From: Cytophagales bacterium CG12_big_fil_rev_8_21_14_0_65_40_12
Lineage (GTDB): Bacteria; Bacteroidota; Bacteroidia; Cytophagales; Cyclobacteriaceae
NCBI GenBank assembly: GCA_002786855.1
Contig: PCUU01000057.1
Coordinates: 1 to 33,913 of the forward strand
DNA length: 33,913 nt
Reading direction: 5' to 3'
In this document: piece by piece, positions 7,207-33,913 of the stretch
Layout of the letters: each line of letters opens with the position of its first letter
How positions within the stretch are numbered: the first letter of the stretch is position 1
Made by a program: the position numbers and the translations under genes
Notes under the pieces: generated by a model
The model's database searches: none
The model's input: only the letters and a program-made list of their open reading frames with translations
Told to the model about the DNA's origin: nothing

Positions 7207-7512
7207 TTTTTGTTTTCTTTATTCAGGAATGATATTTCTTTTCGAATTTAGAATATTCGCGTGAATATGGGAAGTTTAACTCCTCTATAGTTTGTAATTA
7301 TAAAATGGAGACCTCAAATCTTCCGATTCTATAAAATGTGGATTCCACTTTAAAGTTAGAGATCGAGGTCTTATTTTCTTATTTGAAATGCCGGGGTGAA
7401 TAATTCACCATATAATTAATCATCCGGATGATTTTGAGGGGGATTCTTGGGTAGGAGATAAAAATATCACTTCAATGCTTTAGATTTATGCAATTGACTA
7501 AAACCAAAAAGC
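7207..7512. promoter_or_regulatory. Divergent 306 bp control region rich in short palindromes
   Basis: This spacer separates the start of the methyltransferase gene (leftward) from the membrane-protein gene (rightward) and holds no supported gene. It contains several inverted repeats: ATATTC-GCGT-GAATAT (7253-7268), GTGGA-T-TCCAC (7339-7349), GGTGAAT-A-ATTCACC (7395-7409), and the perfect 16-bp palindrome AATCATCCGGATGATT (7418-7433). A 7-bp pair AGACCTC/GAGGTCT (7309-7315, 7365-7371) flanks two direct copies of TATAAAATG (7299 and 7330). Such symmetry suggests binding sites for dimeric regulators, possibly the methyltransferase itself. No good Bacteroidota promoter could be placed with confidence. 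Confidence 0.5.
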
Positions 7513-8499: not shown

Positions 8500-8522
8500 G
8501 TCAAAACTGCATTGGATATTTG

Positions 8523-8554
8523 AAAACCTTGAGGAAGCGCTTCAAGGTTTTTTT
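8523..8554 (+). terminator. Intrinsic terminator after the four-helix membrane protein gene
   Basis: AAAACCTTGA (8523-8532) and TCAAGGTTTT (8542-8551) form a perfect 10-bp stem. An inner palindrome GAAGCGCTTC shortens the loop further, and a run of seven T begins at 8548. It starts 24 bp after the stop codon. It is the clearest rho-independent terminator in the window. Confidence 0.85.
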
Positions 8555-8628
8555 ATGCCTTTTTCAAACCAATGCAACCCTCTGGCTTTAATCGATGTCT
8601 TTCCCGAAAATCACTCAAACTCAAAACA

Positions 8629-9585
8629 ATGAAAACAACAAAAACTCCTCTTATCATTCTGATTGCTTTATTCATTTCTACAATCAGTTTCGCGCAACAA
8701 ACCATTAACAAGTCATTTAATGGGGTGAAAAATATCCGTTTGAGTACCGCTTCTGGAAATGGTACTATCAAAAAGGGCACTGGCAACGAAGTTAAAGTAA
8801 CTCTTGAATACACTTTCGATGACGAAATCTATAAGCCCACTTTTGAACAAGATGGCGACCGTTTGATCATTGACGAACGTTTTGAAAGAAGCAGATCGGT
8901 GAGAGGCTATGCTGAATGGACTTTGGAAATTCCTGATGGACTTGAGCTTGAGTTTAAAACTGGCTCTGGAAATATCGAAGTAGACGGCTTGGAAATTAAT
9001 GTCTTGGCAAAATCTGGTTCAGGCAACATCGAGATGTCAGATGTTACAGGTGAATTTAGAATGAACACTGGCTCTGGTAATATAGAATTATCCAATGTAA
9101 AAGGCGATAATCAAGGCAATACAGGTTCTGGTAATATTAGATTAGATCGCGTTGAAGGCAATTCAGATTTCAATACGGGTTCGGGCAGTATTAGAGGAAG
9201 AGCAGTGTCAGGTGCGATGGATTTCAACACAGGCAGCGGAAATATTACGATTGATGGTGCTACAATTCAGGGGAATTCTCGAATGAACACAGGCTCTGGG
9301 AATGCTGAGGTGGTTTTGGAGGGTGAATTGAACTTCGATTTATCGCTGAATACTGGTTCTGGGAATGCGACTTTGGATTTCAATGGTACGACTATCGCTG
9401 GTGAGTTCAGAATGGAAGCATCATCCAAAAGCGACATTAGAGCTCCATTTGATTTTGACAGGGTTTCAGAAAAGGAATCTGGCTGGAGAAATAGCAAGCG
9501 CTACACAAAAGAGGCTAAAGTTGGGAATAAAGACATTCAAATTGTCATCAGCACAGGCTCAGGGGTCTCTCAAGTAAGAAAATAA
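8629..9585 (+). CDS. Exported DUF4097 beta-strand repeat protein (TGSGN repeats)
   Basis: The start at 8629 (MKTTKTPLIILIALF) gives a clean signal peptide ending at about ISFAQQ; an in-frame ATG at 8572 would add 19 residues in front of it and is less likely. The mature protein has repeats built on (T/S)GSGN, with eight core copies (one as TGSGS) between about residues 109 and 250, spaced 15-22 residues apart. This is the pattern of DUF4097/adhesin-like proteins, which fold as a right-handed beta solenoid. Location is probably the periplasm or cell surface. It has its own short spacer before the ABC permease gene (63 bp containing a hairpin), so the two may be co-transcribed. Function is unknown; related domains occur beside cell-envelope stress regulators. 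Confidence 0.85.
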   Translation: MKTTKTPLIILIALFISTISFAQQTINKSFNGVKNIRLSTASGNGTIKKGTGNEVKVTLEYTFDDEIYKPTFEQDGDRLIIDERFERSRSVRGYAEWTLEIPDGLELEFKTGSGNIEVDGLEINVLAKSGSGNIEMSDVTGEFRMNTGSGNIELSNVKGDNQGNTGSGNIRLDRVEGNSDFNTGSGSIRGRAVSGAMDFNTGSGNITIDGATIQGNSRMNTGSGNAEVVLEGELNFDLSLNTGSGNATLDFNGTTIAGEFRMEASSKSDIRAPFDFDRVSEKESGWRNSKRYTKEAKVGNKDIQIVISTGSGVSQVRK

Positions 9586-9594
9586 TTTTTTTCA

Positions 9595-9628
9595 AGACTT
9601 CTGTAATCATTTGGGATTATAGAAGTCT
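9595..9628 (+). other. Strong hairpin between the DUF4097 and permease genes
   Basis: AGACTTCTGTAATC (9595-9608) pairs with GATTATAGAAGTCT (9615-9628) over 14 positions with one G-U pair and a 6-nt loop. There is no T run after it; the T run lies just before it (9585-9592). It may be an mRNA-stabilising or attenuating structure, or a weak terminator lowering expression of the permease gene. Only the structure is seen. Confidence 0.55.
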
Positions 9629-9648
9629 ATTCTCAAAACAACGGTCAA

Positions 9649-12012
9649 ATGCTCAAAAACTTTCTACTGGTGACCCTGCGCAATTTGCGCAGGAATAGCC
9701 TCTACTCCATCATCAATATTTCAGGTCTTTCCATTGGAATTGCATGCAGTATCTTAATTCTGCTGTGGGTTCGCGATGAAACCTCCTTCGATAAATTCAT
9801 TCTAAAAGCCGATCGCCTTTATCAAGTATGGGTAAATGCCGAGTTCGATGGCTCAATCCAAACTTGGAATTCCGTGCCGCTTCCTACTTATATGGAAATG
9901 AAAAATGCCCATTCCAACATTGTTAATTCGACAGTGGCAGGTTGGGGTGCCGAAAGATTGATTGCCAGAGATGACAATCGAATCATGCAACAGGGCTATT
10001 ACGTGGGGGAAGAATTCCTAGATATGTTCGAATTTCCGATGAAAATAGGTCAAGCTTCTGAGGTTTTGGACGATCCCTCTTCGATAGTGATTTCTGAGGC
10101 TTTGGCCGAGATCATGTTCAAGGGAGAAAATCCAATTGGGCAATTTTTAAAGGTAGAAGATGCAAGCACGCTCAAAGTGTCTGGGGTTTTTAAAAATGTG
10201 CCCAAGAATTCATCATTTCAATTCGACTACTTAATTCCATGGAAACACAGAGAGTCAATTCAACAATGGGTTCGGGACAACACAACTAATTGGGGAAATT
10301 ACTCTTTTCAGGTTTATGTAGAACTTACGGATGCCGCAAGCGAACTCAATGTGGAAGCTGGAATTAAAGATATTCTAACTGAAAAGGGGCAAACAGATGT
10401 GCCAAGAGAGTTTTTCTTACATCCGCTATTGAGGTGGAGGCTTCATGGTCAGTTTGAAAATGGAAAAGAGGCCGGAGGTCAGCATGAATACGTGACCTTA
10501 TTTTCTGTTGTGGCTATGCTCATTTTGATCATCGCTTGTATCAATTTCATGAACTTGGCAACGGCCCGTTCCGAAAGAAGGGCAAAGGAAGTGGGAATCA
10601 GAAAAAGTTTGGGTTCAAGGCGAGGACAATTGATTGCTCAGTTCTATGGAGAGTCTTTGGTCATCGCGGTCATTTCTTTTCTCTTTGGTATTTTACTTGT
10701 GAATTTGTTATTGCCAGCTTACAACAACTTGGTCGATAAAAAACTGGCCATAGACTACCTCTCATCTGAGTTTTGGCTGTTTTCATTGGCCATTATATTC
10801 GTGACAGGGATCGTTTCTGGTAGTTATCCATCGCTTTATTTGTCTTCTTTCAACCCAATTAAAACACTTAAAGGGAAGGTTTCAGTAGGCAAGAATGCGA
10901 ATCTGCCGCGAAAGATTCTCGTAATGATGCAGTTTGGGTTTGCCATTATACTCATCATCAGCACCATCGTCATCGTAAAGCAAATCGATTTGGCTAAAAG
11001 TCGCGATTTAGGCTATAATCAAGAGGGTTTGATCACAATCCCACTCACAGATGAAATCACCAAGAACTATGATGTGCTGAAACAAGAGCTGCTAAGGTCG
11101 GGCGCGGTGCTGTCTATGACTCGGTCAAACAGTGATGTTACCTCTATTCAATCCAATAATTTTTTAAGTTGGCCGGGCAAGCCAGAAACGGAAAAGGTGA
11201 TGTTTGTTACTGTAGTAACGGAATATGACTATGCCAAAACGGTTGGGGCTGAGATGATTCTGGGCAGGGATTTTTCAAAGGAATATGCAAGCGATAGCAC
11301 TGCCATAGTGGTCAATAAGGCGGCCATGGACTTAATGCAGTTGGAAGAACCTATTGGAACTCAGCTGAGTTTGTGGGGAGGTAAGCGGACGCTCATTGGT
11401 GTAATGGATAATATTTTGATGGGCTCACCTTATGAGCAAGTAAAACCAATGTTCATGGTGCTCGATAATTGGGGTGGCTCTTTGACCCTAAGACTGCAAA
11501 AGACCAACGACATGACCGCCACCATAAAAACGGTTCAGGGCATTTTCGAAATCCACAATCCGGCTTATCCTTTCGATTACCACTTTGTAGATGTGGATTT
11601 TGAAAGAAAATACACCACCATTAATTTGACACGACAGCTTTCAACCATTTTCGCGATACTGACCATTTTCATTACTGGTTTGGGCTTATTTGGATTGGCT
11701 TCGTATACTGCTGAGCAGCGCATCAAAGAGATTGGTATTCGTAAAGTTTTAGGTGCCTCTGTGCCCAATTTGGTGGGTTTAATGTCGGTGGATTTTGCAA
11801 AACTGGTTTTGATCTCTTTTGTGGTAGCAGCACCATTGGCTTATTGGTTTCTAGATAACTACCTTCAGAAATACAGCATCAGAACGAGTATAGATTGGTG
11901 GATTTTCGCAGTAACAGGCCTGGTTTCGTTGGTTTTCGCTTTGGCGGTGGTCATGAATCAAGCAAGGAGAGCGGCATTAGCGAATCCAGTTCAGTCGTTG
12001 AGGAGTGAGTAA
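9649..12012 (+). CDS. ABC transporter permease, FtsX/MacB type, tandem architecture
   Basis: The 787-residue protein starts with MLKNFLLVTLRNLRRN and a first helix (about 20-42, ISGLSIGIACSILILLWV), followed by a large MacB-type periplasmic core domain. Three helices come next, with the typical FtsX segment FMNLATARSERRAKEVGIRKSLG (about 299-321). A second half repeats the plan: one helix near 423-445, another periplasmic domain, and a C-terminal FtsX unit containing RIKEIGIRKVLGASV. This double layout is usual for Bacteroidota permeases. Such proteins are mechanotransmission subunits acting in lipoprotein, peptide or drug export or in envelope sensing. No ATPase gene is adjacent, so the partner must be elsewhere. 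Its neighbour is the DUF4097 protein. Confidence 0.9.
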   Translation: MLKNFLLVTLRNLRRNSLYSIINISGLSIGIACSILILLWVRDETSFDKFILKADRLYQVWVNAEFDGSIQTWNSVPLPTYMEMKNAHSNIVNSTVAGWGAERLIARDDNRIMQQGYYVGEEFLDMFEFPMKIGQASEVLDDPSSIVISEALAEIMFKGENPIGQFLKVEDASTLKVSGVFKNVPKNSSFQFDYLIPWKHRESIQQWVRDNTTNWGNYSFQVYVELTDAASELNVEAGIKDILTEKGQTDVPREFFLHPLLRWRLHGQFENGKEAGGQHEYVTLFSVVAMLILIIACINFMNLATARSERRAKEVGIRKSLGSRRGQLIAQFYGESLVIAVISFLFGILLVNLLLPAYNNLVDKKLAIDYLSSEFWLFSLAIIFVTGIVSGSYPSLYLSSFNPIKTLKGKVSVGKNANLPRKILVMMQFGFAIILIISTIVIVKQIDLAKSRDLGYNQEGLITIPLTDEITKNYDVLKQELLRSGAVLSMTRSNSDVTSIQSNNFLSWPGKPETEKVMFVTVVTEYDYAKTVGAEMILGRDFSKEYASDSTAIVVNKAAMDLMQLEEPIGTQLSLWGGKRTLIGVMDNILMGSPYEQVKPMFMVLDNWGGSLTLRLQKTNDMTATIKTVQGIFEIHNPAYPFDYHFVDVDFERKYTTINLTRQLSTIFAILTIFITGLGLFGLASYTAEQRIKEIGIRKVLGASVPNLVGLMSVDFAKLVLISFVVAAPLAYWFLDNYLQKYSIRTSIDWWIFAVTGLVSLVFALAVVMNQARRAALANPVQSLRSE

Positions 12013-18090: not shown

Positions 18091-18477
18091 GTGAAAAAAC
18101 CAGAAGTATATAATTTCGATTCCAAACCCGATTTACGCGGCAACCTCACCTTTTTAGAAGAGTTGAAGGATGTGCCCTTTGAAGTAAAACGGGTGTATTG
18201 GCTCTATGCCCTACCTGAGCAACAGGTCCGGGGCGATCATGCCCATAAAACTGGTGAACAAGTCATTATTGCGGTGCAAGGCAAAATCGAAGTGCTATTA
18301 GAATCCCAAAAAGGCGAGTTGTTCAATTGCACCTTGGACAAGCCCGACAAAGGGCTTTATATTCCGCCTTTGTGGTGGGGAAAGATGATTTTCAGTAAGA
18401 ATGCTCTGATGATTGGACTAGCTTCGGATGAGTACAATGAGGACGATTACATTAGAAGTAGAAAGGATTTTAGATGA
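18091..18477 (+). CDS. dTDP-sugar 3,4-ketoisomerase-like cupin (FdtA/QdtA, WxcM-like)
   Basis: The 128-residue cupin uses a GTG start five bases after the ATPase stop. RGDHAHKTGEQVIIAVQGKI (47-66) contains the HxH pair (His50, His52) of the FdtA/QdtA family, followed by YIPPLWWGKM. These enzymes convert dTDP-4-keto-6-deoxyglucose to the 3-keto isomer on the way to amino sugars such as Fuc3NAc or Qui3NAc. The usual partner aminotransferase (FdtB/QdtB) is not in the window, so the exact product is open. It overlaps the next gene by 4 bp (ATGA) and probably begins a surface-glycan operon. Confidence 0.82.
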   Translation: MKKPEVYNFDSKPDLRGNLTFLEELKDVPFEVKRVYWLYALPEQQVRGDHAHKTGEQVIIAVQGKIEVLLESQKGELFNCTLDKPDKGLYIPPLWWGKMIFSKNALMIGLASDEYNEDDYIRSRKDFR

Positions 18478-19415
18478 GAAACCTCAAAGTAGTTGAGCAA
18501 GCATCCCTAATTGCTGAAAAGCAATTTGCTCAAATTCTCTATACATCGAAGACCTTTTTGGAGGTGAATAATAACCTTCCTCAGATTCATTTTTGGCTGA
18601 TGGAAACCACTGACCAAACTGCTTTAGGGCACGTTAGCTTTTCTTTAGAAGAAGGTAAAGCCTTAAGTCCGGCCAAAGCTCCTTTTGGTGGTTTTTCGTT
18701 GGCAGATTCACTCAAAAGTGAAGAACTTACCTTTTTTATTTTTGAAGTAATTAGAAAACTTAAAAATTTGAATATCAGTGCTATTTACCTAAAGTCGGCA
18801 CCAGATAATTATGGAATTCATCTTTCTGTTTTAAACCAAAACCTAGTCTATGCTGGCTTTTCGGGACTGAAGGATTTTGAATATCAAAGCATTATGGTAA
18901 CCGATGAGGCTTTTGATTCGAAGATAGCTGAAATGGAAAATCGTAAGTTGAAGAAGTGCGAAAAAGAGGGCTTCGAATTTAAATTACTGTCTCAAAACCA
19001 TCTGCACGCAGTTTTTCAATTTGTAAAAGCCCATAGAGACGAAAAGGGCTATGATTTTTCAATGGATTGGGAAAGTCTAAAAATGGCCAATTTGGCTTTG
19101 CCCAATATCTATTTACCCATGGCGGTTTTTGACGGCCCTAAAATGATTGCCGCTACCATAGCCATAAGGGCTATCGACAAGGTGCTTTATAATTTCTCGC
19201 CTGCCCATGATTGGGACTATCATCAATTCAGTCCGGTAGTAATGCTCACGCAAGGTTTATATCATTTTTGCCAAACCAACGGCTTTACCCACCTCGACTT
19301 GGGGACTTCCTACTTGGATGATGCCATTAATGAAGGACTAAAGTCTTTCAAATCTCGTTTAGGGGCTGAAACCTTTTTTGGTCACAGTTATCATAAAATC
19401 TTATCTTCACATTAA
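18474..19415 (+). CDS. FemAB/GNAT-like acyltransferase family protein
   Basis: The 313-residue soluble protein fits a double-GNAT, FemAB-like fold (Acetyltransf_6 type). The second half has RKLKKCEKEGFEFKLL (about 157-172), a strand region PMAVFDGPKMIAATIAIRAI (about 218-237), and TQGLYHFCQTNGFTHLDLGTSY, which is typical of the C-terminal GNAT lobe. ATGA overlap with the ketoisomerase gene and a 5 bp gap to the flippase gene imply one operon. In this setting it may acylate a sugar nucleotide or lipid-linked sugar, but no substrate is visible. Individual catalytic residues cannot be assigned. Confidence 0.65.
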   Translation: MRNLKVVEQASLIAEKQFAQILYTSKTFLEVNNNLPQIHFWLMETTDQTALGHVSFSLEEGKALSPAKAPFGGFSLADSLKSEELTFFIFEVIRKLKNLNISAIYLKSAPDNYGIHLSVLNQNLVYAGFSGLKDFEYQSIMVTDEAFDSKIAEMENRKLKKCEKEGFEFKLLSQNHLHAVFQFVKAHRDEKGYDFSMDWESLKMANLALPNIYLPMAVFDGPKMIAATIAIRAIDKVLYNFSPAHDWDYHQFSPVVMLTQGLYHFCQTNGFTHLDLGTSYLDDAINEGLKSFKSRLGAETFFGHSYHKILSSH

Positions 19416-19420
19416 AATTT

Positions 19421-20725
19421 TTGCGGTTGTCCTCTCAATTCTTTAAAAGTTCGAAATGGTCATTCATGGCGGTGGTTTTCCGCGCTTTAGGTGGATTGAC
19501 CATCAACAAACTTTTTGCGGTTTTCTTCGGCACCAATGGCATTACACTGCTTTCTCATTTTCAAAACCTCACTTCGCTATTCACTCTGCTTCCTTCCGAG
19601 GGAATCAATCGAGCAATAATGAAGCACTGGTCCGATCCAAAAGCCAGCGAAGAAAGTAAATTTAAAATATGGCAGACGGGTTTTTGGTTGACCAATGTGC
19701 TTTTTATTGCCGTTTTTGCATTGCTGTACTTCTGGAAAAGAGACTTTTTCTTTGCTCGCTTTATTGAACATTATAGCGTAGAGCGCTTTCTCTCAATTTT
19801 CCTTCCCGCTGTCTTCCTCATGCTCATGACGGCACTCCTCAACTCCATTATTTTGGCCTATAGAGATGTAAAAGCATATGCACTGATCAGTATTGGCGGA
19901 ATGATTTTGTTGGTGAGCACAGTTGTAATTACAGTAGCTAAGGGAAATCTAAATCTGGCCCTATTGAGCTTTGTGGTCGGCTATTCGCTGATGTTCTTTT
20001 GTGCTCTTGCTTATTTTATCATTCACAGAAAAAGGGTCAAACTGCAATTTGGTTTGCCAAATGGGGACGCTCTAAAGAAGATTGGGCATTTTATACTCAT
20101 GGCGCTCAGTGCCATTGCCCTGGGCAAACTGCTCGATTTTGTGGTAAGAGATTATGTGATAGAGCTATACGGACTTAATCGCACTGGCCTTTGGCAATCG
20201 GTAACCAAAATGTCATCAAGCTATTTACTTGTTTTTAGTGGTACGGTTGGGGTTGTCTATTATCCTAAAATGGCCTCGCTAATCCATGACGATGAAGCGC
20301 TTCGCAAATATGTGGGTAAAGTAATGGCTTTCGTGGCCTTTGTTACTTTCATCTGTTTGGGGATTTATTACTTGAATAGAACTTTCATTTTGCAGTTGTT
20401 TTTCGATAAAGGTTTCGAACAGGCAGCGTATTTGGTCAGGTTTCAGACGATAGGCGACTTTTTCTGTATTCTATCATATTTATTAGCTTACCTTTTAAGC
20501 GCTAGAGTGAAAACCTTTAAGTACATGGTGGCCCAAGTATTCTCTGCAGGGATTTATTTGCTTTTGATCTATCTGTTGATGGATCGGTTCAACCTCGAAG
20601 CCCTGACTCTCGCTTATTTATGGAGGCATATTGGCTTTTTCTTGATCCTTGTCCTATTCAATAGGAAATTGCTTTTCCCGAAAATTAGCGAAATAGAAGA
20701 ATCAGTAATGAACAAAGTACGATGA
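19421..20725 (+). CDS. Wzx-like polysaccharide flippase (MATE/MOP superfamily)
   Basis: The 434-residue protein has 12 predicted membrane helices and the character of an O-antigen translocase. The N-terminus KSSKWSFMAVVFRALGGLTINKLFAVFFG is typical: one helix, then the K-L-F/A-x-x-F-G segment at about 29-36. A central VVRDYVIELYGLNRTGLWQSV (about 239-259) matches the family. TTG is used as start; a second TTG two codons later is an alternative. Wzx proteins flip undecaprenyl-linked repeat units across the inner membrane. No polymerase (Wzy) lies nearby, so the substrate may be completed by genes elsewhere. Confidence 0.82.
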   Translation: MRLSSQFFKSSKWSFMAVVFRALGGLTINKLFAVFFGTNGITLLSHFQNLTSLFTLLPSEGINRAIMKHWSDPKASEESKFKIWQTGFWLTNVLFIAVFALLYFWKRDFFFARFIEHYSVERFLSIFLPAVFLMLMTALLNSIILAYRDVKAYALISIGGMILLVSTVVITVAKGNLNLALLSFVVGYSLMFFCALAYFIIHRKRVKLQFGLPNGDALKKIGHFILMALSAIALGKLLDFVVRDYVIELYGLNRTGLWQSVTKMSSSYLLVFSGTVGVVYYPKMASLIHDDEALRKYVGKVMAFVAFVTFICLGIYYLNRTFILQLFFDKGFEQAAYLVRFQTIGDFFCILSYLLAYLLSARVKTFKYMVAQVFSAGIYLLLIYLLMDRFNLEALTLAYLWRHIGFFLILVLFNRKLLFPKISEIEESVMNKVR

Positions 20726-20744
20726 TGGCCCTAAAACTACACCT

Positions 20745-21695
20745 ATGCACATGAAGCCCCTCGTTTCGGTGATTTGCATCTCGTATAATCATGCCCCCTT
20801 TATTCAAGAGGCTTTGAATTCTGTTTTCGGGCAAACTTACCCAAATCTAGAACTGATTATTTTGGATGATGCGAGCAAAGATGAGAGCCAAAAAATCATC
20901 GAAGGGCTGATTCAGGAAAGAACAAATACCACCTTCTATCCACACGCCAAAAATGAGGGCTATACACGTACGTTCAATGAAGGATTGAAGAAGGCCAAGG
21001 GCGAATTTATTGTGGACTTCGCATTGGATGACGTAATGCTTCCTGATTTCATTGAAAAAAGTATCGAACGATTGACAGACTTAGGAGGTGATTATGGCAT
21101 CAGCTTTTCGAATGCCCAATACATCAATGCCCAATCTGAAGTAGTTGGTGATCATAACGCGATCTTAAGAAAGAAAGGATTGATGGATCAAATTCCAGAA
21201 GGAGATGTCTTTGAAATGATATTGAAACGCTATTTCATCTGCACCCCAACTATGGTCATTCGTAAAGTGGTTTTTGACCGAATGGGAGGGTATGACGAAG
21301 CTTTAGCTTATGAAGATTTCGATTTTTGGGTACGATCTTCCCGCCAATTCCAATACGCATATATTGATGAAGTGCTGGCGCAAAAACGAAAGCTCGAAAC
21401 CAGCATGTCTGCTAATAGGTATCGCCACAGACAAAACCAGCAAATGGCCTCTATTTTGAAAGTTTGCCAAAAAGCATTTACCCTTTGTAAATCCAAAGCT
21501 GAACTCAATGCCCTGAAAGAACGGCTCTACTACGAACACCGACAATGCATAAGGCATGAGGCTTACCCTTTGGCACAGGAATACCTGGCATTGATCAAGT
21601 TAGTTCATGGTAATTGGGTAAAAACACGAATAGTTGCAGGCCTCATTGGGTTTGGGATTGATTTTTCTAGAAAGAAGAAAACGTTTGAATACTAG
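20745..21695 (+). CDS. Family 2 glycosyltransferase
   Basis: The 316-residue protein begins with PLVSVICISYNHAPFIQEAL (5-24), the nucleotide-binding start of GT2 enzymes. ELIILDDASKDES (about 36-48) and FALDDVMLPDF (DxD-like, about 96-106) follow. The acceptor region has RMGGYDEALAYEDFDFWVR (about 174-192) with the ED motif. No membrane helix is seen, so it is a cytoplasmic, inverting transferase acting on a lipid-linked acceptor. It lies 19 bp after the flippase gene and probably ends the surface-glycan operon; 79 bp separate it from the pyruvate carboxylase gene. Confidence 0.9.
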   Translation: MHMKPLVSVICISYNHAPFIQEALNSVFGQTYPNLELIILDDASKDESQKIIEGLIQERTNTTFYPHAKNEGYTRTFNEGLKKAKGEFIVDFALDDVMLPDFIEKSIERLTDLGGDYGISFSNAQYINAQSEVVGDHNAILRKKGLMDQIPEGDVFEMILKRYFICTPTMVIRKVVFDRMGGYDEALAYEDFDFWVRSSRQFQYAYIDEVLAQKRKLETSMSANRYRHRQNQQMASILKVCQKAFTLCKSKAELNALKERLYYEHRQCIRHEAYPLAQEYLALIKLVHGNWVKTRIVAGLIGFGIDFSRKKKTFEY

Positions 21696-25358: not shown

Positions 25359-26873
25359 ATGAAAAAGGAGAATGAAAAACTGAGTGTTTTGCTCATTTCT
25401 GAAGGCACCTACCCTTTTTATGGAGGAGGTATTTCCACATGGAGTCACATGCTTTGTGATAGGGTTTCGAATGTGGATTATACGCTTTATTCTATCAATG
25501 CAGGTTTTGAGCAGGAGCCCATTTTTAAGCTTAGCGAGAACGTAAAAAAGGTAATCCAAATCCCCCTTTGGGCACCAGACGAGCCCCAAGACTATGTGAG
25601 TTTTAGCAAAGAATATTATAAGGTCGTAAATAAAAAGGAACGAACCACGCCTAAAGTAATTCGAAATCAATTTGTTCCGCTTTTTGAGAAGTTCATTCAA
25701 TTGGTTTATGAAAGTTCCGAAAACATGGAGGCGCTGGACTTTGTGTTCAAGAGCATGTGGGAGTATTTTCAGGATTATGACTACAAAGAGACACTAAAAA
25801 GCGAAGAGGTTTGGGAGGTTTTTCAACGAGAGGCAACTAAAGAAACTGAAGAAGACGGTTCTTTTGGGGCATCGCTTTTTGACCTTACTGTTGGTCTTCG
25901 CTGGTTATATCGCTTTTTTATTCCTTTTTCAATACCCATCGAAAAGGTTGATATTTCTCACATTACATTGTCAGGTTTTCCGCTCATTCCCGCTTTGGTG
26001 CTAAAGTACAGGTATGGAACACCACTCATGATTACAGAACACGGGGTATATGTCCGCGAACGCCTTTTGTACATCAATAGGTCTGATTACTCTTATTTTA
26101 TCAAGGATCTTTTGATCAAACTCACAGAAATTATCACCCGACTTTCCTACTACAAAGCGGACAAAATACTTTCGGTGAACAAGTTTAATATTACATGGGA
26201 ATTGATGTATGGAGCCGATCCAAGCAAAATCGAAATCACATACAACGGGGTAGATCATCAAAAATTTGTACCTCGCGAAAAGCCCGTGCATTTAAAATCA
26301 ATTCCTACTGTGGTAGCTGCCGCACGAATTTTTGAATTGAAAGACGTGCTAACCATGATCCGCTCTTGCGCGGTGGTAAGGAAGAAAATACCGAATGTTC
26401 AGTACTTGGTTTACGGTGACAAAAATGCCGTTCCAGAATATACTGCCGAATGTGAAGCTTTGATCGATGAGCTGCAATTAAGAAATAACTTCTTTTTGAA
26501 GGGCTTTCATAACGAGCCTCATCTGATTTTCAGCGAAGGTGATATTTCCATTTTAACCTCCATTTCAGAAGGCTTTCCTTTTACGGTGATTGAGTCGATG
26601 AGCTGCGGAGTGCCTGTAGTCGCCACAGACGTTGGAGGGGTGATTGAGGCCATTGATGAGATGTCGGGTTTTGTGTGCAAACCGCGGGATCCCGAAGCAA
26701 TAGGGGCTAAGGTGATTCAGCTTTTGCAAGACACTGAGTTGAGGGAGAAAATGAGCAAACATGCCCGGCAAAGAGTGATTGATCATTTTACCCTCGGGAT
26801 TTTTATTGATTCCTACGAGCGCATTTATTCTTCGGTCTATAATGCAGCTGATCTTAAATTGACTCCTCAATGA
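25359..26873 (+). CDS. pelF: PelF-like family 4 glycosyltransferase
   Basis: At 504 residues the length is close to Pseudomonas aeruginosa PelF (507). The N-terminal VLLISEGTYPFYGGGISTW (10-28) is the PelF form of the GT-B nucleotide-fold start. The long middle region (about 85-165) seen in PelF, but not in general GT4 enzymes, is present. LMITEHGVYVRER and SEGFPFTVIESM complete the pattern; the latter is the retaining-enzyme EX7E motif with E404 and E412. PelF polymerises the cationic N-acetylhexosamine polymer Pel from UDP-sugar in the cytoplasm. It starts a five-gene operon, 137 bp after pyc; a weak -7-like TATCTTTT lies at 25276. Confidence 0.85.
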   Translation: MKKENEKLSVLLISEGTYPFYGGGISTWSHMLCDRVSNVDYTLYSINAGFEQEPIFKLSENVKKVIQIPLWAPDEPQDYVSFSKEYYKVVNKKERTTPKVIRNQFVPLFEKFIQLVYESSENMEALDFVFKSMWEYFQDYDYKETLKSEEVWEVFQREATKETEEDGSFGASLFDLTVGLRWLYRFFIPFSIPIEKVDISHITLSGFPLIPALVLKYRYGTPLMITEHGVYVRERLLYINRSDYSYFIKDLLIKLTEIITRLSYYKADKILSVNKFNITWELMYGADPSKIEITYNGVDHQKFVPREKPVHLKSIPTVVAAARIFELKDVLTMIRSCAVVRKKIPNVQYLVYGDKNAVPEYTAECEALIDELQLRNNFFLKGFHNEPHLIFSEGDISILTSISEGFPFTVIESMSCGVPVVATDVGGVIEAIDEMSGFVCKPRDPEAIGAKVIQLLQDTELREKMSKHARQRVIDHFTLGIFIDSYERIYSSVYNAADLKLTPQ

Positions 26874-26882
26874 ATGTGATCT

Positions 26883-28493
26883 ATGAACAGTAGCTCTGAT
26901 AAAATAGCGCAATTAGGAATGGATGTTTATGCAAAAATAGGCAAGCCAGTCAATGTCAACGTGGTGCGCGCTATGTTGGAATCTATGAGCATAAGGATTG
27001 TAGATGCTCAAGCCGATTATGGAATGGAAAATCTGCAAGAGCTGGCCAAACTGGTGTATAGTCAGATCACCGCTGCTGAATTCTTAGAACGTCATCCAAG
27101 TCCTTTGAAAGTCAATGAGCAATTTGCAAGCACCAACACCTCAGCATCTGATTATTTGAGGGTTAAAACCAAATATTTCTTTCATTACTATCCCCTTGGT
27201 CTTTTTCATGGCTTGCCAGTTTTCCTTCAAATTTTGACCATAGTACTCTTTGGCTATTCCCTGTGGACCTATGTTGGTTTTAACCAACTGCAGTCTACCG
27301 CAGTAGTTTTGGGAGTTATTTTTGGTTTGGTGGGAACAGGCGGTTTCGTTCAGGTAATAGGCAGGCAGGTGTCACATTACTGGTTCAATAATGATTTTAT
27401 AATGGCCAGAAAAAGTACGGTTATGGTGATCAGGGATGGGCTCACTTTTATGGGAGTACTCAGTATTTTGACCATCGTAGTTAATTTTTTCGCCAACTTC
27501 TATCCCTATAAATTCCTTTATGTGGTGTATGCCTACTCTTTCTCCATTGGAATTTTACTTTTGTTCTCTGCCGTTTTTCACCCTTTAAAACAGCGTTGGG
27601 TAATTACAGTGGCCTTTGTGGTTGCAACGGCTGTGGCGCTTTCGCTAAAACTCTTTACCAGCATAGAAACCTATTATACCCATTGGATAGGGATTTGGAC
27701 TGCCATTGTGATCATGGTGCTTTACCTCAAATACTTCTTCGATAAAAAGGTAAAGCAGACAAAAAGTTTTAACCGGGCCACCTCCAAAAGTGCGGTCATG
27801 ATCTATCGGAATTATCGGTACTTCTTTTACGGACTGCTCTTTTTTACTTTCATTTTCTTGGACAGAATTTTAGCATGGTCCACCAGCCATGACGGTATTT
27901 TGCCCTATATTATTTACTATGAGAAAAACTATGAAGTGGGAATGGACATTGCGATCCTGATTTTCTTTCTTCTGGTTGGGGTTTTGGAGTATAGCATAGC
28001 CTCTTTCAGTACCATAAGTGACATGATGCAGAAGCAAATCCCCTACAATCGTCCAGATCTTTTCAATTCAAAAATGCTCAGGATGTATCGCCAGCACGTG
28101 ATCACTTTATGGATTGCGGGCATAGTGATGACAGTGCTCCTTTATTTTGTAATCTGGTCGCGGCTTGGCTACGAAAAGGCTTTTGACGAAGCCCTTGATC
28201 CTATCAGCATAAAAGTGAGCTTGATCGGAGGCTTGGGTTATGTGTTTGTGGCTTGGGGAATGCTCAATTCCTTGTACCTATTTACGCTCAATAAACCTAC
28301 CAAGCCGCTCAAGGCCATTATCTGGGCTTCGATTGTAAATATTGTGGTTGGATTATTGTTGAGTAGGATGGTGTCTTACGAATACAGTGTCGTTGGGATG
28401 TTGGCAGGTTCGATTGTTTATGCGATGCTTACACTCAATTCTGCAATGAAGTTTTTTAAGAATCTTGATTACTACTATTATGCTGCGTACTAA
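26883..28493 (+). CDS. pelG: PelG-like membrane transporter with extra N-terminal domain
   Basis: The protein has 536 residues, whereas PelG of Pseudomonas has about 456. About 12 helices lie between residues 112 and 525, as in MOP-superfamily PelG, with the early motif VQVIGRQVSHYWFNND (about 157-172). The first 95-100 residues are an extra soluble, mostly helical domain with no signal or membrane segment, containing EFLERHPSPLKVNEQF. PelG is thought to form the inner-membrane path for Pel together with PelF, PelD and PelE. It begins 9 bp after pelF and overlaps the next gene by 14 bp. The extra domain may take over contacts normally provided by PelD or PelE; that is inference. Confidence 0.82.
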   Translation: MNSSSDKIAQLGMDVYAKIGKPVNVNVVRAMLESMSIRIVDAQADYGMENLQELAKLVYSQITAAEFLERHPSPLKVNEQFASTNTSASDYLRVKTKYFFHYYPLGLFHGLPVFLQILTIVLFGYSLWTYVGFNQLQSTAVVLGVIFGLVGTGGFVQVIGRQVSHYWFNNDFIMARKSTVMVIRDGLTFMGVLSILTIVVNFFANFYPYKFLYVVYAYSFSIGILLLFSAVFHPLKQRWVITVAFVVATAVALSLKLFTSIETYYTHWIGIWTAIVIMVLYLKYFFDKKVKQTKSFNRATSKSAVMIYRNYRYFFYGLLFFTFIFLDRILAWSTSHDGILPYIIYYEKNYEVGMDIAILIFFLLVGVLEYSIASFSTISDMMQKQIPYNRPDLFNSKMLRMYRQHVITLWIAGIVMTVLLYFVIWSRLGYEKAFDEALDPISIKVSLIGGLGYVFVAWGMLNSLYLFTLNKPTKPLKAIIWASIVNIVVGLLLSRMVSYEYSVVGMLAGSIVYAMLTLNSAMKFFKNLDYYYYAAY

Positions 28494-29286
28494 ATTTTTG
28501 TGGTGCATTATGGCTTTTTTCTCAATGTTTGGGCTCAAATCTCAAGAGTCGGCAGGTTCGGTATTTATTAGCTACGGTGATATTAACCCAGATAAAATTC
28601 GCGGCTATAAATATGTAATTGTTGAATCTGAGCACTTTAGCTCTTTTGATGTAAAAAGACTTAAAGAGAATAATCAAGTGGTTTTGGGCTATATCAGCTT
28701 GGGTGAGGTCAGTGCAAGTAGGTATTATTTTGAATCTATTAAAGACAAAACATTAGGCAAAAACAAGGTGTGGGAAAGCTACTTTTTAGATTTATCGGAC
28801 AGCGATACCAAGAACGCCATATTAGGATTAATTCAAAAAATGGATAAAAAGGGGTTTGACGGCTTGTTTTTAGATACCGTTGATACTTTCTCAGAATGGG
28901 GGCCTTATCCCGAACGGGGAGATATTTTGATCGAATTTCTGGCGAAGATCAAGGAGCAATTCCCTGATTTTTATTTGATGCAAAATGCTGGACTCTCCCT
29001 ATTGCCCAAATCCAAAAAGTATATCAATTCCGTAGCCATCGAATCCGTAGCGAGCGACTATTCATTTGAGGCCAAGGAATATAAAATCAGAAAGTCTCAT
29101 GACTTTTATCAGAAATTATCAATGCTTAAATCCGTAAAATCGAAACATGATTTATCGATAGTTTTGATTGAGTACGCAGATACTCAAAAGCTATATAATC
29201 GCATTAAGCATGAAATTGCTCCCCTCAAATGGGATTTCTTTATTGGTAATATAGACTTACAAGGCATGCCGAGTTTTAAAAAGTAG
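28480..29286 (+). CDS. Stand-alone PelA-like glycoside hydrolase (TM1410/GH114-like TIM barrel)
   Basis: The ATG at 28480 is chosen because MLRTKFLWCIMAFFSMFGLKS is a signal peptide; a TTG at 28465 would add five residues. The 268-residue protein corresponds to the N-terminal hydrolase domain of PelA. It has YVIVESEHF (about 45-53), VVLGYISLGEVS (68-79), DGLFLDTVDTF (127-137; D132, D135), LMQNAG (166-171) and AIESV (186-190). Glu188 is the best candidate for the catalytic acid. In Pseudomonas the hydrolase cuts Pel in the periplasm and is fused to the deacetylase; here it is a separate gene. The reading frame overlaps pelG by 14 bp, so translation is probably coupled. Confidence 0.78.
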   Translation: MLRTKFLWCIMAFFSMFGLKSQESAGSVFISYGDINPDKIRGYKYVIVESEHFSSFDVKRLKENNQVVLGYISLGEVSASRYYFESIKDKTLGKNKVWESYFLDLSDSDTKNAILGLIQKMDKKGFDGLFLDTVDTFSEWGPYPERGDILIEFLAKIKEQFPDFYLMQNAGLSLLPKSKKYINSVAIESVASDYSFEAKEYKIRKSHDFYQKLSMLKSVKSKHDLSIVLIEYADTQKLYNRIKHEIAPLKWDFFIGNIDLQGMPSFKK

Positions 29287-29287
29287 C

Positions 29288-31261
29288 ATGAATACGCCCT
29301 ATACAGATTCCATCTTCATCGGTATGATCCGACTCTTTTTATGGATACTGTTCCTGTATGTCATCAAACGCTTGTTGTTCAAAGGCAAGGGCTCGAAAAA
29401 CCAAGTGAACTCCATGGCCAATCTTTGGGCCACCTATGGCAGTGGTACTTTAGTGTTGATTTTTGTACTGATCCAGCTCCAGAGCTACGATTTGATGACA
29501 TGCATTTTTATCATGCTTTTAATCTTCGGGTTTCGGTTGATAGGGATTAAAAATTTATTTGAAGACAGTCGACAGTTCAAGCGCAAACGTAAAATGATCC
29601 TCTTGAGGGTCATCGAAAATGTGGAAGATAAGGAACCGATCATTGATGTAGTGGAAGAGAAACCTTCGAAAAGACTTTCGATCAATTTTGAATTTCTGAT
29701 CATGGTCATTCCCGCGTTCTTAGCGCTTTTTATAAGGTTTTATTTGATGAATTTCGATGATTATCAGCTTTCTGCCTCCTGGTTTCAAGAGTTGAACACG
29801 GTCAAAAATTTCACGAAACAGATTTGGTTCAATGATGAGTTGGCCATGGTAGGGGAATATGCACTGCTTAATTTTTATGCAAAGATCACGGGCATAAGCC
29901 CCGAAATTGCCCTCGAATCATTCGGGCTGCTTCAATCTTTCATTTTAAGCTTCATTATTTTTTGGTTCATGAATGTGATGACGAGCTCGAAAATCACAGT
30001 GCCATTAATAACAGCCCTAGGTTTTGCGCTGTTCTTTAATTGGGCACCTTTGGATTTGTCTCAAATTACCCATTCAAAGCAGACCTTAATGGCACTTACT
30101 TTTGTTCTACCCGTGATGGTCTACATTAAAAAACCTTGGGTGCTTTACACGAACAAACCGAAGTCATATTTTCTGAAAATGGCCGTGATTTTCTGCGGCA
30201 TAGCCTTGATCGATTTGTTTTCGTTGATTGTGCTCATTCCTCCTTTCTTTTTGGTCGCTTTCTTCTTTATTAAAAAGAGGTATAAAGCCTATTTCTGGAA
30301 ATCCCTAGGGGCTTATTTTTTAAGTGCTGGGCTTATTTTGGGCTATTATGCCATAGAAACATCTTATCGAGGGGTTGATTTCGGTAGTTTTATCAGCTCC
30401 AATCTTTTGGCAGTTTCCGCTTCTACCACCACCACCAACATGATCATGTCCTATGATGTGCTTTTGAAAACTATTCAAGTGGTGTCCGTAGTGGCGATCA
30501 TCACGATGTTTTTTATGTTAAAAACCATGCTAGACAAATGGGCGGGATTAATTTCATTCCTTATCTACATCAACATATTGGTTGTTTATACCATTCTAAA
30601 CCTATCTTACTTTGATCAGGATTTGTTCAATGAGGTTTTGCCCATATTCATTTCTATCGCCCTAGGCATCGTCATTTATCTGCTCATGTACTTTTTTGTA
30701 GTAGTGGTCAAAGAAGTCCGTTTTTCAAATGCCATTGCAGTAACCATCATTTTTTTGATTGCCCTACCTACCGCCTACTTTAGCCAAAAGAATTTATTGC
30801 ATCAAGACGACCGTACATCTGCTGTAAACAAGGAGGTTTTGAAAGCCTACCAACGGATTTCATCTGACTTTTTGCCCTATTCTTATGCAGTGATCAATAG
30901 CAGCGCCCTGTTGCCCATCAGTGTCGATTCGCATAATTTCATTACTTATAAAGATTTCACTTCGTCATACTCGGCCCGCGATTCAGTGTATTTCGCCAAC
31001 GAGAAAAACAAGAATTTTTTAAGACAGAATACCGAGTACATTTTACCAAGCAGTCTTTTGGTATTTGTTTATAATAATGTTGAAAAACTTGAATTCAATG
31101 GGGTTTCGGTGGGGAACGACCTCGTTTTGGCAGTGAGTCATCAGTTGGATCTGCTCCGCAATAGGGGACGCGACATTACTGTCTTTTATCAAGGCGATAA
31201 GCTCACAGTCTATGAGGTGATAAATAATCCGGGAGAGTCAAGAATAGATGAAATGTTATAA
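29288..31261 (+). CDS. Large polytopic membrane protein, GT-C-like, function unknown
   Basis: This 657-residue protein is not recognisably PelD or PelE. Two or three helices (about 10-28 and 50-86) are followed by a charged cytoplasmic loop (about 90-130). About ten or eleven more helices then run to residue 508, and a soluble, probably periplasmic C-terminal domain covers 510-657. After the helix at 133-153, NFDDYQ (155-160, D157/D158) falls at the start of an external loop, where GT-C glycosyltransferases keep their catalytic acid. GT-C membership is therefore an inference from topology. The start follows the hydrolase stop by one base and the next gene starts one base after its stop, so it is a constant part of this operon. 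Confidence 0.7.
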   Translation: MNTPYTDSIFIGMIRLFLWILFLYVIKRLLFKGKGSKNQVNSMANLWATYGSGTLVLIFVLIQLQSYDLMTCIFIMLLIFGFRLIGIKNLFEDSRQFKRKRKMILLRVIENVEDKEPIIDVVEEKPSKRLSINFEFLIMVIPAFLALFIRFYLMNFDDYQLSASWFQELNTVKNFTKQIWFNDELAMVGEYALLNFYAKITGISPEIALESFGLLQSFILSFIIFWFMNVMTSSKITVPLITALGFALFFNWAPLDLSQITHSKQTLMALTFVLPVMVYIKKPWVLYTNKPKSYFLKMAVIFCGIALIDLFSLIVLIPPFFLVAFFFIKKRYKAYFWKSLGAYFLSAGLILGYYAIETSYRGVDFGSFISSNLLAVSASTTTTNMIMSYDVLLKTIQVVSVVAIITMFFMLKTMLDKWAGLISFLIYINILVVYTILNLSYFDQDLFNEVLPIFISIALGIVIYLLMYFFVVVVKEVRFSNAIAVTIIFLIALPTAYFSQKNLLHQDDRTSAVNKEVLKAYQRISSDFLPYSYAVINSSALLPISVDSHNFITYKDFTSSYSARDSVYFANEKNKNFLRQNTEYILPSSLLVFVYNNVEKLEFNGVSVGNDLVLAVSHQLDLLRNRGRDITVFYQGDKLTVYEVINNPGESRIDEML

Positions 31262-31262
31262 G

Positions 31263-33913
31263 ATGAGAGGTCAAATAACATATCTCCGAATACTCCTTAT
31301 GCTTTTGGCACTCGTTTTTTTTGTCGGTTGCGATAGTAAGAAAGAAGACAGGCCAGTAACCGTAGTAAGAAATGCTTCCGATCCCTTTGTGATTTATATT
31401 GTAGATCTAAAACATCCCCTAAGCCCTGATTATGCAAAGCAGGTGGCCAAGGTCTTCGATTACACTAAAATACCTTTCAAATCAGAGACTATTGATGAAT
31501 TCAACAAGGATCCGAATCTAACCGAAAACGCCCATGTGATCTTAATGAATGGCACCGAAGCTTTAAATGATAGCGCGGTTGATCATTTGATCGAATTTGT
31601 TGCGAGCGGAGGGACACTTATTTTTCCAAGTGTCAATGAAGATCAAAGGATGGGTTTTCTATCCGGCACGCTTCCCAATGCCTCTTTCGACTATGACCTC
31701 AACGCTAAGGGTATCCATTTCCTGAAAAACCTTCTGCCAGGAATGGCCGATAAATCTATTTATCCTTTAAAGAAGAATATAGGATTGGGCAAAGACAACT
31801 TTAAACCCAATATCAATGTGTTTGCCACCTCTATCGAGGACAAAGAGCTTCCAATTATTTTCGAAAATACTATCGGCAACGGTAGTGTAATCCATTTTAA
31901 TACCAGCATATCTTTCGAAAAAACCGACCGAGGCCTTTTGTTCGCAGCCATTCTAAGAGGCTTGGAAGGTATTCCGTATCCCATAGCGAATGTAAACGCT
32001 ATTTTCATCGATGATTTCCCCGGGCCTCTTTACGATATTCCTTCAGAGCCCATCAAATCTGAAATGGGGATTAATCAAGCCCAGTTTGTTACAGATGTTT
32101 GGTGGCCAGATATGCTAGATGTTGCCAAAGAATTCGGTGTAAAGTACTCGGCCTACACCATCTTTAATTTTAACGAGATCAAAACAGCACCTTTTCTTTT
32201 CAATGAATGGGACTTGAATAAAACCACCAAAGACAATAAGACACAGAGCAGTGCACAATGGCTCAGTAAACAAGTGATAGATAATGGTTTTGAGCTTGCC
32301 ATTCATGGTTATAATCATGAATCGCTCCTCAAAGAATTGTGGCTGAGGCCAGAAGCCATAGAAAATGGTTTTAAAGCTGCCCGAAAAAAATGGACAGTAA
32401 GCGGATTCGGCAAGTTTCCAATAAGCTATGTGGCGCCTTCGAATTATATCGATAGTGTCGGTTTGGTGCATCTCAAAATAGGTATGCCTGAAATGAAATA
32501 TATGAGCACCACCTATGAAGGGGACTTTTTTGAAGGGGGCGACAGGGATTTTGATAATGATAAATATGAACCCCAACTTTTCGATTTTCCAAGGGTAACT
32601 AGTGGCTATGTTTTTAGGGAAAAGAAGCAATACATCCACCAATCCTTGTATTTGTACACAGGTATTTGGTCACATTTTATCCACCCTGACGATGTTTTCC
32701 AATTGCCGAATGAAGATAATACATCCGTGGGTGATTTTGAATATCGCAACGAGGAGAGCTTAGGATGGCACAGTTCCTCTGGAGCACGGAAGGGGATGCT
32801 CGAGTACTGGAGAGAATACTTAAATCAGGTAAAAGAAGTTCATCCATCTGCACGCTTTCTTACGGTAAGAGATGCAGCAGCCATAACAAAAGATTGGAGG
32901 GAAGCCCAGTACAGTTTCGAAGCTACAGGCGAATTTGTCTCAGCTAAAATGGTGGGCAAGAGGCCTTTGAAAGAGAGTGAATATTACTGGTTCATGTTTG
33001 CAAAAGAAGAGCATGCCGATGAAATGGAAAATGAGCTCAAAAAAGTGGTAAAGACCTATACCAAAACCAAGTTTTTTGAAGGCATGCTTTTTACCATCAA
33101 AACTTCAATTCCTGAGCTAACCTTCGGTAAGTCGGCCCAATTTAAAAGCAATAGTTTGTTTACCACGGAAGAGGCCATAGCGTATGCAAAAGAGGAATAT
33201 ACGGCATTCAATCAGCTAAGGGCCGAAGGAATTATCGAAGAAAATACACCTTATGTGGAAATTGTAAGGCCTCCAAAATTAGATAATTCGGCAGATTCTG
33301 TAGATTATTTTGTAGCGAACGAAAACCTTGAAGAGGCGACCGATGTCTTGTCGAAACAGCTAATCAAAGGAGATGATGTTGACTCAACTGAGTTTGAACA
33401 GTACGTTCAATTAATGGGCTATCAAGATAAAGGCTTGGCAGTTTGGGACTTCTTGGATGAACTGTACCAGAACAAATCGAAAGATTTAGCTTTAAACTAT
33501 CTCGATTTCTATTTGCAAAAGGAAGCTTATCCAACGGAAGAGTTAACAGAAAAGTGGCTTTGGAGAAAAATCCAAAAGGAGCCTAAAGATCAAGCCTCTT
33601 CAACCTCTTATTTGGCTTATTTTTATTCGGTCGAGTACCAAGAGAAAGTCAAGTCTATTGTTGAGGGAGCTTATGAGCGGGAATCTTCCGAATCGAACTA
33701 TGCGCAATACATTCAATATCTTATAGATTTTGAGCCTGCCCAGTTGTTGAAGGAACTGGCAGAAGCGGAACCGAAAGAGCATCCACTGCTCTGGCCAAAA
33801 GCGGCCACTATTACCTATGCTTTTTCAGACAATGATCAAATCCAACAAGCTCTGATTTGGGCTGATTATAGCGCTGAAATTCCCATCATCACTAAACTGC
33901 AATGGTGGGTGAG
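31263..33913 (+). CDS. DUF2194 lipoprotein with PelA-like deacetylase domain, C-terminus off the edge
   Basis: The frame is open to the right edge (883 residues seen). The lipobox FFVGC with Cys23 predicts a membrane-anchored lipoprotein. Residues about 40-235 look like a Rossmann or amidotransferase-like domain, as found between hydrolase and deacetylase in PelA. The deacetylase part has NAIFIDDFPGP (245-255, metal-binding Asp250/Asp251), IHGYNHE (347-353, metal-binding His348 and His352), a YVAPSNY stretch and SHFIHPDDV. These are CE4-like motifs 1, 2 and 3-5. From about residue 695 on, repeated helix pairs form a TPR-like solenoid. I call DUF2194 from memory of the family. The product should de-N-acetylate Pel-type polymer in the periplasm. 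Confidence 0.78.
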   Translation, partial: MRGQITYLRILLMLLALVFFVGCDSKKEDRPVTVVRNASDPFVIYIVDLKHPLSPDYAKQVAKVFDYTKIPFKSETIDEFNKDPNLTENAHVILMNGTEALNDSAVDHLIEFVASGGTLIFPSVNEDQRMGFLSGTLPNASFDYDLNAKGIHFLKNLLPGMADKSIYPLKKNIGLGKDNFKPNINVFATSIEDKELPIIFENTIGNGSVIHFNTSISFEKTDRGLLFAAILRGLEGIPYPIANVNAIFIDDFPGPLYDIPSEPIKSEMGINQAQFVTDVWWPDMLDVAKEFGVKYSAYTIFNFNEIKTAPFLFNEWDLNKTTKDNKTQSSAQWLSKQVIDNGFELAIHGYNHESLLKELWLRPEAIENGFKAARKKWTVSGFGKFPISYVAPSNYIDSVGLVHLKIGMPEMKYMSTTYEGDFFEGGDRDFDNDKYEPQLFDFPRVTSGYVFREKKQYIHQSLYLYTGIWSHFIHPDDVFQLPNEDNTSVGDFEYRNEESLGWHSSSGARKGMLEYWREYLNQVKEVHPSARFLTVRDAAAITKDWREAQYSFEATGEFVSAKMVGKRPLKESEYYWFMFAKEEHADEMENELKKVVKTYTKTKFFEGMLFTIKTSIPELTFGKSAQFKSNSLFTTEEAIAYAKEEYTAFNQLRAEGIIEENTPYVEIVRPPKLDNSADSVDYFVANENLEEATDVLSKQLIKGDDVDSTEFEQYVQLMGYQDKGLAVWDFLDELYQNKSKDLALNYLDFYLQKEAYPTEELTEKWLWRKIQKEPKDQASSTSYLAYFYSVEYQEKVKSIVEGAYERESSESNYAQYIQYLIDFEPAQLLKELAEAEPKEHPLLWPKAATITYAFSDNDQIQQALIWADYSAEIPIITKLQWWV

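Follow-up and report, generated by a model that had tools for sequence, protein, structure and literature searches.

A five-gene operon of Roseivirga and related Bacteroidota for a probable Pel-type exopolysaccharide, with an apparent deacetylase–porin fusion

How could a Pel-type exopolysaccharide be made and secreted from an operon in which several of the known Pel partners are not recognisable? The question is raised by the end of a 33,913-nucleotide stretch (the window) of contig PCUU01000057.1, here C75, from Cytophagales bacterium CG12_big_fil_rev_8_21_14_0_65_40_12, a member of the genus Roseivirga whose genome is 99% complete in 99 contigs. An initial annotation, made from the sequence alone, described five closely spaced genes with PelF-like, PelG-like and PelA-type products and no visible PelB, PelD or PelE. 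Our analysis indicates that this operon probably encodes a compact machine for synthesis and secretion of a Pel-type exopolysaccharide, likely to be independent of cyclic di-GMP (c-di-GMP), and that its last gene appears to encode one polypeptide that unites deacetylase, repeat spacer and exopolysaccharide porin.

Predicted Pel synthesis genes and conservation of the operon

The product of gene 1 matched the PelF equivalog model NF038011 with 173.1 bits over positions 10–490 (cut-off 100), and DUF3492 and Glycos_transf_1 matched it as well; the four other matches in the same genome were weak (E 7e-12 to 2e-8). Gene 2 was assigned through its family: the PelG model PF16933 was matched at E ≤ 0.1 by 15 of the 24 PelG-like family members (best E 3e-13), and the PelG of one relative, locus L053, exceeded the curated cut-off (33.2 vs. 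29 bits). A simple hydropathy scan of the window PelG gave 11 hydrophobic segments. The product of gene 3 matched GH114 with 53.3 bits (cut-off 27), and a profile of 21 hydrolase sequences (A4) found its best structural matches in PelA (5TCB, 9CGY and 5TSY; E 2.5e-27 to 4.9e-26), whereas GH114/TM1410 structures were far weaker (E 3e-7 to 5e-6). An AI-designed TIM barrel (7MCD, E 1.8e-10), fourth in the hydrolase search, was set aside. The PelF-like and PelG-like proteins, the stand-alone PelA-type hydrolase and the split of PelA over two genes, with the hydrolase in gene 3 and the deacetylase in gene 5, are thus as initially described.

All five open reading frames (ORFs) of the operon are present in the window (Table 1), and their coordinates bear out the spacings first reported: from gene 1 to gene 5, a 9 bp gap, a 14 bp overlap (with the ATG start of gene 3), a 1 bp gap and another 14 bp overlap. 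The set is more than a chance arrangement, since the scores of PelF, GH114 and DUF2194, the Pfam family of gene 5, exceed their cut-offs and many genomes show the genes in this order. Of 296 Bacteroidota genomes, 23 carry PelF, and these are also the 23 with DUF2194; in each of them the two genes lie on a single contig. Among the 14 control genomes, Thermotoga maritima matched both families. A scan of a species-genome collection found 182 relatives, of which the best 80 were kept, leaving distant relatives under-represented; by title, most are Flavobacteriaceae or Roseivirga. Together with loci from 14 of the 22 other carrier genomes of the phylum, these 80 named relatives make up 94 surveyed loci. 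The loci are in part dependent on each other: judged by length, L046 and L111 are the same contig. The order pelF-pelG-hydrolase-gene 4-DUF2194 was kept in 81 of the 94, plainly in 70 and in 11 with one HD-domain gene inserted after pelG and before the hydrolase gene; in a further 11 a contig end truncates the operon upstream, one locus (L044) is rearranged and one (L124) is disrupted. Beyond these five genes, no further gene was constant in the operons of relatives, a search that included no PelC profile. No relative was found when viral contigs were scanned with PelF.

Table 1. Genes of the Pel-type operon in the window
Feature	Position	Strand	Size and basis
pelF-like GT4 glycosyltransferase, predicted Pel polymerase	25359..26873	+	504 aa; NF038011
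pelG-like membrane protein, predicted inner-membrane polysaccharide exporter	26883..28493	+	536 aa; family-level PF16933
Stand-alone PelA-type glycoside hydrolase	28480 (ATG) or 28465 (TTG)..29286	+	GH114; 5TCB
Gene 4: polytopic membrane protein, GT-C-like fold and C-terminal soluble domain	29288..31261	+	657 aa; AlphaFold2/Foldseek
Gene 5: N-terminal part of deacetylase-repeat-porin fusion	31248..33913	+	888 aa to window end, no stop; DUF2194, 9ZAU

The surveyed loci also differ in detail. In L020 (3660-5196) and L064 (R. spongicola), pelF is split in two frames of 238 and 294 aa, by a frameshift or a sequencing error, with no damage to the remaining four genes. Just upstream of pelF, on either strand, an additional and longer GH114-like gene (about 319–384 aa) is present in L045, L046 and, among the 80 named loci, in 21 that lie between L095 and L134. 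In L047–L057 a second, divergent PelF-like GT4 precedes pelF, in most cases with a response regulator; in L049–L057 two small proteins follow the fused gene, carrying DUF2752 and TM2 in the scanned copy, L053. The contig of L131, filed as a metagenome-assembled genome of Bifidobacterium breve, carries a Bacteroidota-type operon and is probably a binning error.

Predicted deacetylase, repeats and barrel of gene 5

The gene 5 product matched DUF2194 with 209 bits (Pfam cut-off 30). Its N-terminal part holds a signal sequence with a cysteine, followed by CBM114-like and CE26-like domains and the start of helical repeats. A profile of 14 copies (A1) matched the crystal structure of Bacillus cereus PelA-DA, 9ZAU, with E 7.2e-80 over 511 residues, profile positions 35–571 aligning to chain residues 28–538, so that both domains are covered. 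According to the available text of PMC13254593, B. cereus PelA-DA deacetylates α-1,4-linked N-acetylgalactosamine (GalNAc) and founds the families CE26 and CBM114, with an active site formed by D262, D263, H350, H354, P405, R458 and H488, and D490 and D491 beside it. Mapped by hand from the printed alignment of the profile with 9ZAU, the corresponding window residues are D255, D256, H353, H357, P397, R449, H479, D481 and D482; none of the nine varies in any of the 95 aligned rows, 94 of which are distinct. Of the earlier description of gene 5 as a DUF2194 protein with CE4-like deacetylase motifs, the family and the deacetylase stand, but the CE4 assignment was dropped in favour of a CE26/CBM114 relation to B. 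cereus PelA-DA, as Polysacc_deac_1 reached only E 0.09 against 7e-80 for 9ZAU.

The last ORF is incomplete: the contig ends 360 bases beyond the window, at 34273, after an N gap and inside gene 5, and the DUF2194 frame of this cut copy has 1008 aa. Gene 5 measures 1287–1298 aa at full length in six genomes of the same genus, its frames span 1268–1349 aa in the 22 other carrier genomes, and it is intact at 1244–1372 aa in 73 of the 80 named relatives; among the other seven copies, six are truncated at a contig end and that of L106 is split. A search with the C-terminal part of the relatives' proteins hit a single place in the window genome, positions 461–1522 of contig C66 (63% identical), near the contig start, which would supply the missing barrel tail. 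Two genes come next on C66, and by visual comparison their first residues are similar to those of the genes that R. echinicomitans and R. seohaensis have behind the operon. The tail of C75 beyond the N gap was also considered as the continuation of gene 5 and rejected by eye. Both C75:33914-34273 and C66:1-460 hold non-fitting sequence with N gaps and are likely scaffolding errors.

Gene 5 was modelled on the R. echinicomitans copy (AlphaFold2, residues 99–1298, 40 sequences). The model has a predicted local distance difference test score (pLDDT) of 85.7, with 1106 of 1200 residues at 70 or higher, and a predicted template modelling score (pTM) of 0.54. It comprises mixed alpha/beta domains, a run of helices at 545–900, and 16 long strands and one short one at 903–1186. 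Beyond the 9ZAU match, profile A1 matches designed tetratricopeptide repeat (TPR) proteins, and in the divergent homologue of L044 Pfam marks as many as eight TPR stretches, together with a match to the PgaA barrel below the cut-off (E 0.006). The first five Foldseek matches of the model in the PDB are BcsC, BcsC, PelBC chain M (9h80), BcsC and 4Y25, a polysaccharide secretin that we take to be PgaA; other outer-membrane barrels rank after them. A PelB-like repeat array and outer-membrane barrel are thus supported at the level of the predicted fold rather than by a sequence match to PelB. The 9ZAU match, the active-site residues, the helices followed by a 16-strand barrel and the exporter fold matches together suggest that deacetylase, repeat spacer and exopolysaccharide porin are joined in gene 5. 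The statement that no PelB is recognisable is accordingly not supported: as the relatives show, PelB-like repeats and porin are fused to the deacetylase, a part that was hidden at first because the contig ends inside the gene. The porins BcsC and PgaA likewise consist of a repeat array and a barrel, but to our knowledge neither carries a fused deacetylase domain, and the poly-N-acetylglucosamine system has its deacetylase, PgaB, as a protein of its own.

Surface lipoproteins are common in Bacteroidota, and a lipobox was detected by a simple pattern in 75 of 88 gene 5 copies, with a cysteine near the signal end seen by eye in 10 of the other 13. The fused protein could then be a surface lipoprotein whose barrel has another purpose, the polymer leaving through a different porin. 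We consider this improbable, since exopolysaccharide exporters are the best fold matches of the C-terminal half and the operon regularly includes this gene, although the flanks were not searched for other porins.

The GT-C-like protein and probable independence of c-di-GMP

Gene 4 is the only gene of the operon without an assigned Pel counterpart. Pfam gave no convincing family for the window protein or for 30 gene 4 proteins, and the divergent copy in L055 matched DUF6541 below the cut-off (25.7 vs. 29 bits). Its AlphaFold2 model (pLDDT 82.2, pTM 0.83) retrieved from the PDB GT-C enzymes or oligosaccharyltransferase complexes in 15 of the first 16 Foldseek rows (E 1e-4 to 2.5e-2, template modelling scores 0.24–0.41), including Dpy19, STT3, PglB, AftA, AftD, ALG12, ALG9 and ArnT; row 8 is a translocon complex. 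On the basis of this predicted fold, what had been called a large unknown membrane protein is a membrane protein indeed, but one with a GT-C-like fold.

GT-C enzymes carry a catalytic acidic residue in the first outer loop. The candidate for this residue, D157, is Asp in 30 of 30 members of the gene 4 set A3 but is replaced in 12 of the 14 phylum-wide copies added to them (Asn in 11, His in one), and since it is not kept we do not call gene 4 an active transferase; such an activity was rejected as a firm reading. Four residues of the C-terminal soluble domain, Y554, F557, Y561 and D565, are kept in 44 of 44 copies.

The constancy of this neighbour, which is not named in the available descriptions of the Pseudomonas, Bacillus and Streptococcus operons, leads to the possibility that Pel-derived machinery produces a different polymer, for instance one built of some other alpha-linked hexosamine, or a chain to which the GT-C-fold protein adds decorations. 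We regard this as rather unlikely: hydrolase and deacetylase both match enzymes with published α-1,4-GalNAc activity, and the replacement of D157 across the phylum argues against a conserved transferase activity.

We next consider how a Pel-type operon of this composition may be controlled. No GGDEF match was found in the window genome, while 8 of the 14 control genomes gave one, and GGDEF was likewise absent from 27 of the 30 genomes carrying the marker genes, the exceptions being G069, G074 and G298. These counts indicate that the system most likely works without c-di-GMP in most of its hosts. Other lineages have response-regulator and HD genes, or SpoIIE, HD/GAF and STAS genes, in or beside the operon. 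In L044, a SpoIIE phosphatase, HD/GAF and STAS genes occupy positions 6462-10395 between gene 4 and DUF2194, which suggests partner-switch control of a Pel-type operon; no hydrolase was seen in the 20 kb of this locus. As for PelD and PelE, none was recognised, in line with the initial annotation, though no PelE profile was searched and the PelD model PF16963, which had no match, matched no control either.

Since the genome is a 99-contig draft and profiles of PelB, PelC and PelE were not searched, one might suppose that separate PelB, PelC, PelD and PelE lie elsewhere and that the operon is one half of a canonical Pel system. The 99% complete genome, however, holds one PelF-grade match, one GH114, one DUF2194 and no GGDEF, and we see very little room for this explanation.

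The proposed machine and its relation to known Pel systems

In the machine that we propose, PelF would polymerise a nucleotide-activated amino sugar, probably UDP-GalNAc, and PelG with the GT-C-fold protein, in place of PelD and PelE, would move the chain across the inner membrane. The gene 5 protein would catch the chain with its CBM114-like and CE26-like domains and remove acetyl groups; the chain, now cationic, would be guided along the helical repeats and released through the C-terminal outer-membrane barrel, and the separate PelA-type hydrolase would trim it. Computation shows the family matches, the conservation of the catalytic residues, the fused domain order in relatives, the predicted barrel, the gene order and the absence of GGDEF matches; what we infer from these is the substrate, the polymer, its topology and what the GT-C-fold protein does. 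A bolder version, which we put forward tentatively and think is probably too strong, holds that Pel in Bacteroidota was rebuilt as a five-protein assembly independent of c-di-GMP, in which the GT-C protein replaces PelD and PelE and adds side sugars where the aspartate is kept. Under that version every secreted chain would have to pass the deacetylase, as deacetylation and export reside on one polypeptide.

Several observations weigh against the proposed Pel-type machine. The window PelG itself has no direct family match in Pfam or NCBIfam, and an NCBIfam scan of the 24 PelG-like proteins matched none. The spread is patchy: 8 of the 19 genomes from the genus have PelF, and none of 40 sampled from the family and order does. 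The pTM of the gene 5 model makes its domain arrangement uncertain; 9ZAU is absent among the 50 Foldseek matches listed for it, in which the deacetylase region appears only through a Helicobacter deacetylase at rank 27. The exporter folds show 6–8% identity, so the barrel may descend from PelB or from another exopolysaccharide porin. In the window strain itself, the fusion would depend on two contig ends: the first 460 or so bases of C66 are Ns and unrelated sequence that do not fit gene 5, so the join of C75 and C66 is inferred.

The Pel systems described so far share parts of this organisation, as far as the available text of the cited papers goes. The pelABCDEFG system of Pseudomonas aeruginosa has PelF, PelG, hydrolase and deacetylase activities, and TPRs with an outer-membrane barrel in PelB; it differs in that PelA is one protein (GH166 and CE21), PelB is separate, PelC, PelD and PelE are present, and c-di-GMP acts via PelD (PMC12022489). 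The TPRs of P. aeruginosa PelB bind PelA and enhance deacetylation (PMC12022489), an interaction with which a deacetylase–porin fusion is consistent. B. cereus pelDEA(DA)FG shares PelF, PelG, a hydrolase encoded by a gene of its own and PelA-DA, the deacetylase matched end to end. Its hydrolase lies outside the operon, PelD, PelE and c-di-GMP control are retained, and PelA-DA, of about 610 residues, crosses the membrane once and has no porin (PMC7112168, PMC13254593). Streptococcus intermedius also has PelF, PelG and PelA-DA, but no outer-membrane porin; it retains PelD and PelE and has the additional SIR_1591-1594 (PMC12345266). GGDEF is missing from its PelD, and known diguanylate cyclases are reported to be absent from its species group, so Pel independent of c-di-GMP is already known (PMC12345266), as are separate hydrolase and deacetylase proteins in Gram-positive Pel (PMC7112168, PMC12345266). 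An expression table for Fusobacterium nucleatum lists pelF, pelG, an endo alpha-1,4 polygalactosaminidase and a DUF2194 gene as down-regulated, the polygalactosaminidase and DUF2194 genes having near gene numbers within CS401_RS04325-04355, and a related locus is therefore already in print, with no discussion of DUF2194 in the part available (PMC9848294).

Beyond these species, pelADEFG was reported in the candidate phylum KSB1 (PMC9012183), full-length PelA occurs in 16 phyla, among which Bacteroidota may be included (PMC12022489), and a study of Sphingobacterium and Pseudomonas genomes tabulates pel genes that its available text does not tie to Sphingobacterium (PMC8305213). Words beginning with "Bacteroid" are absent from the main text of PMC7112194, PMC12022489, PMC13254593 and PMC12345266, and a search of titles and abstract beginnings returned no paper on Pel in Bacteroidota or on a PelA–PelB fusion. 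Split PelA and c-di-GMP-independent Pel are thus known, but the fusion of deacetylase and porin and the constant GT-C-fold partner were not found in the literature searched, as far as these titles and excerpts go.

Two further features of the window lie outside the conserved operon. A sugar-related run at 18091-21695, upstream of the pyruvate carboxylase gene, encodes FdtA/WxcM-like and GNAT proteins, a Wzx-like flippase (Polysacc_synt_3) and a GT2 glycosyltransferase. At 5290-7206, a C-5 cytosine methyltransferase adjoins a weak match to a BsaWI-type restriction endonuclease (21.4 bits, cut-off 26.2), possibly forming a restriction-modification pair.

How the interaction of PelA and PelB coordinates modification with export is called unclear in the abstract of the 2025 PelA paper (PMC12022489). 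In the operon described here the two steps appear to be covalently joined, which supports the coupling model and would allow structural studies to be done on one protein. The findings extend Pel-type systems across Bacteroidota, mostly to genomes without a recognisable diguanylate cyclase, suggest a likely function for DUF2194, a Pfam family so far uncharacterised, and point to the GT-C-fold protein as an unexplored partner in Pel production.

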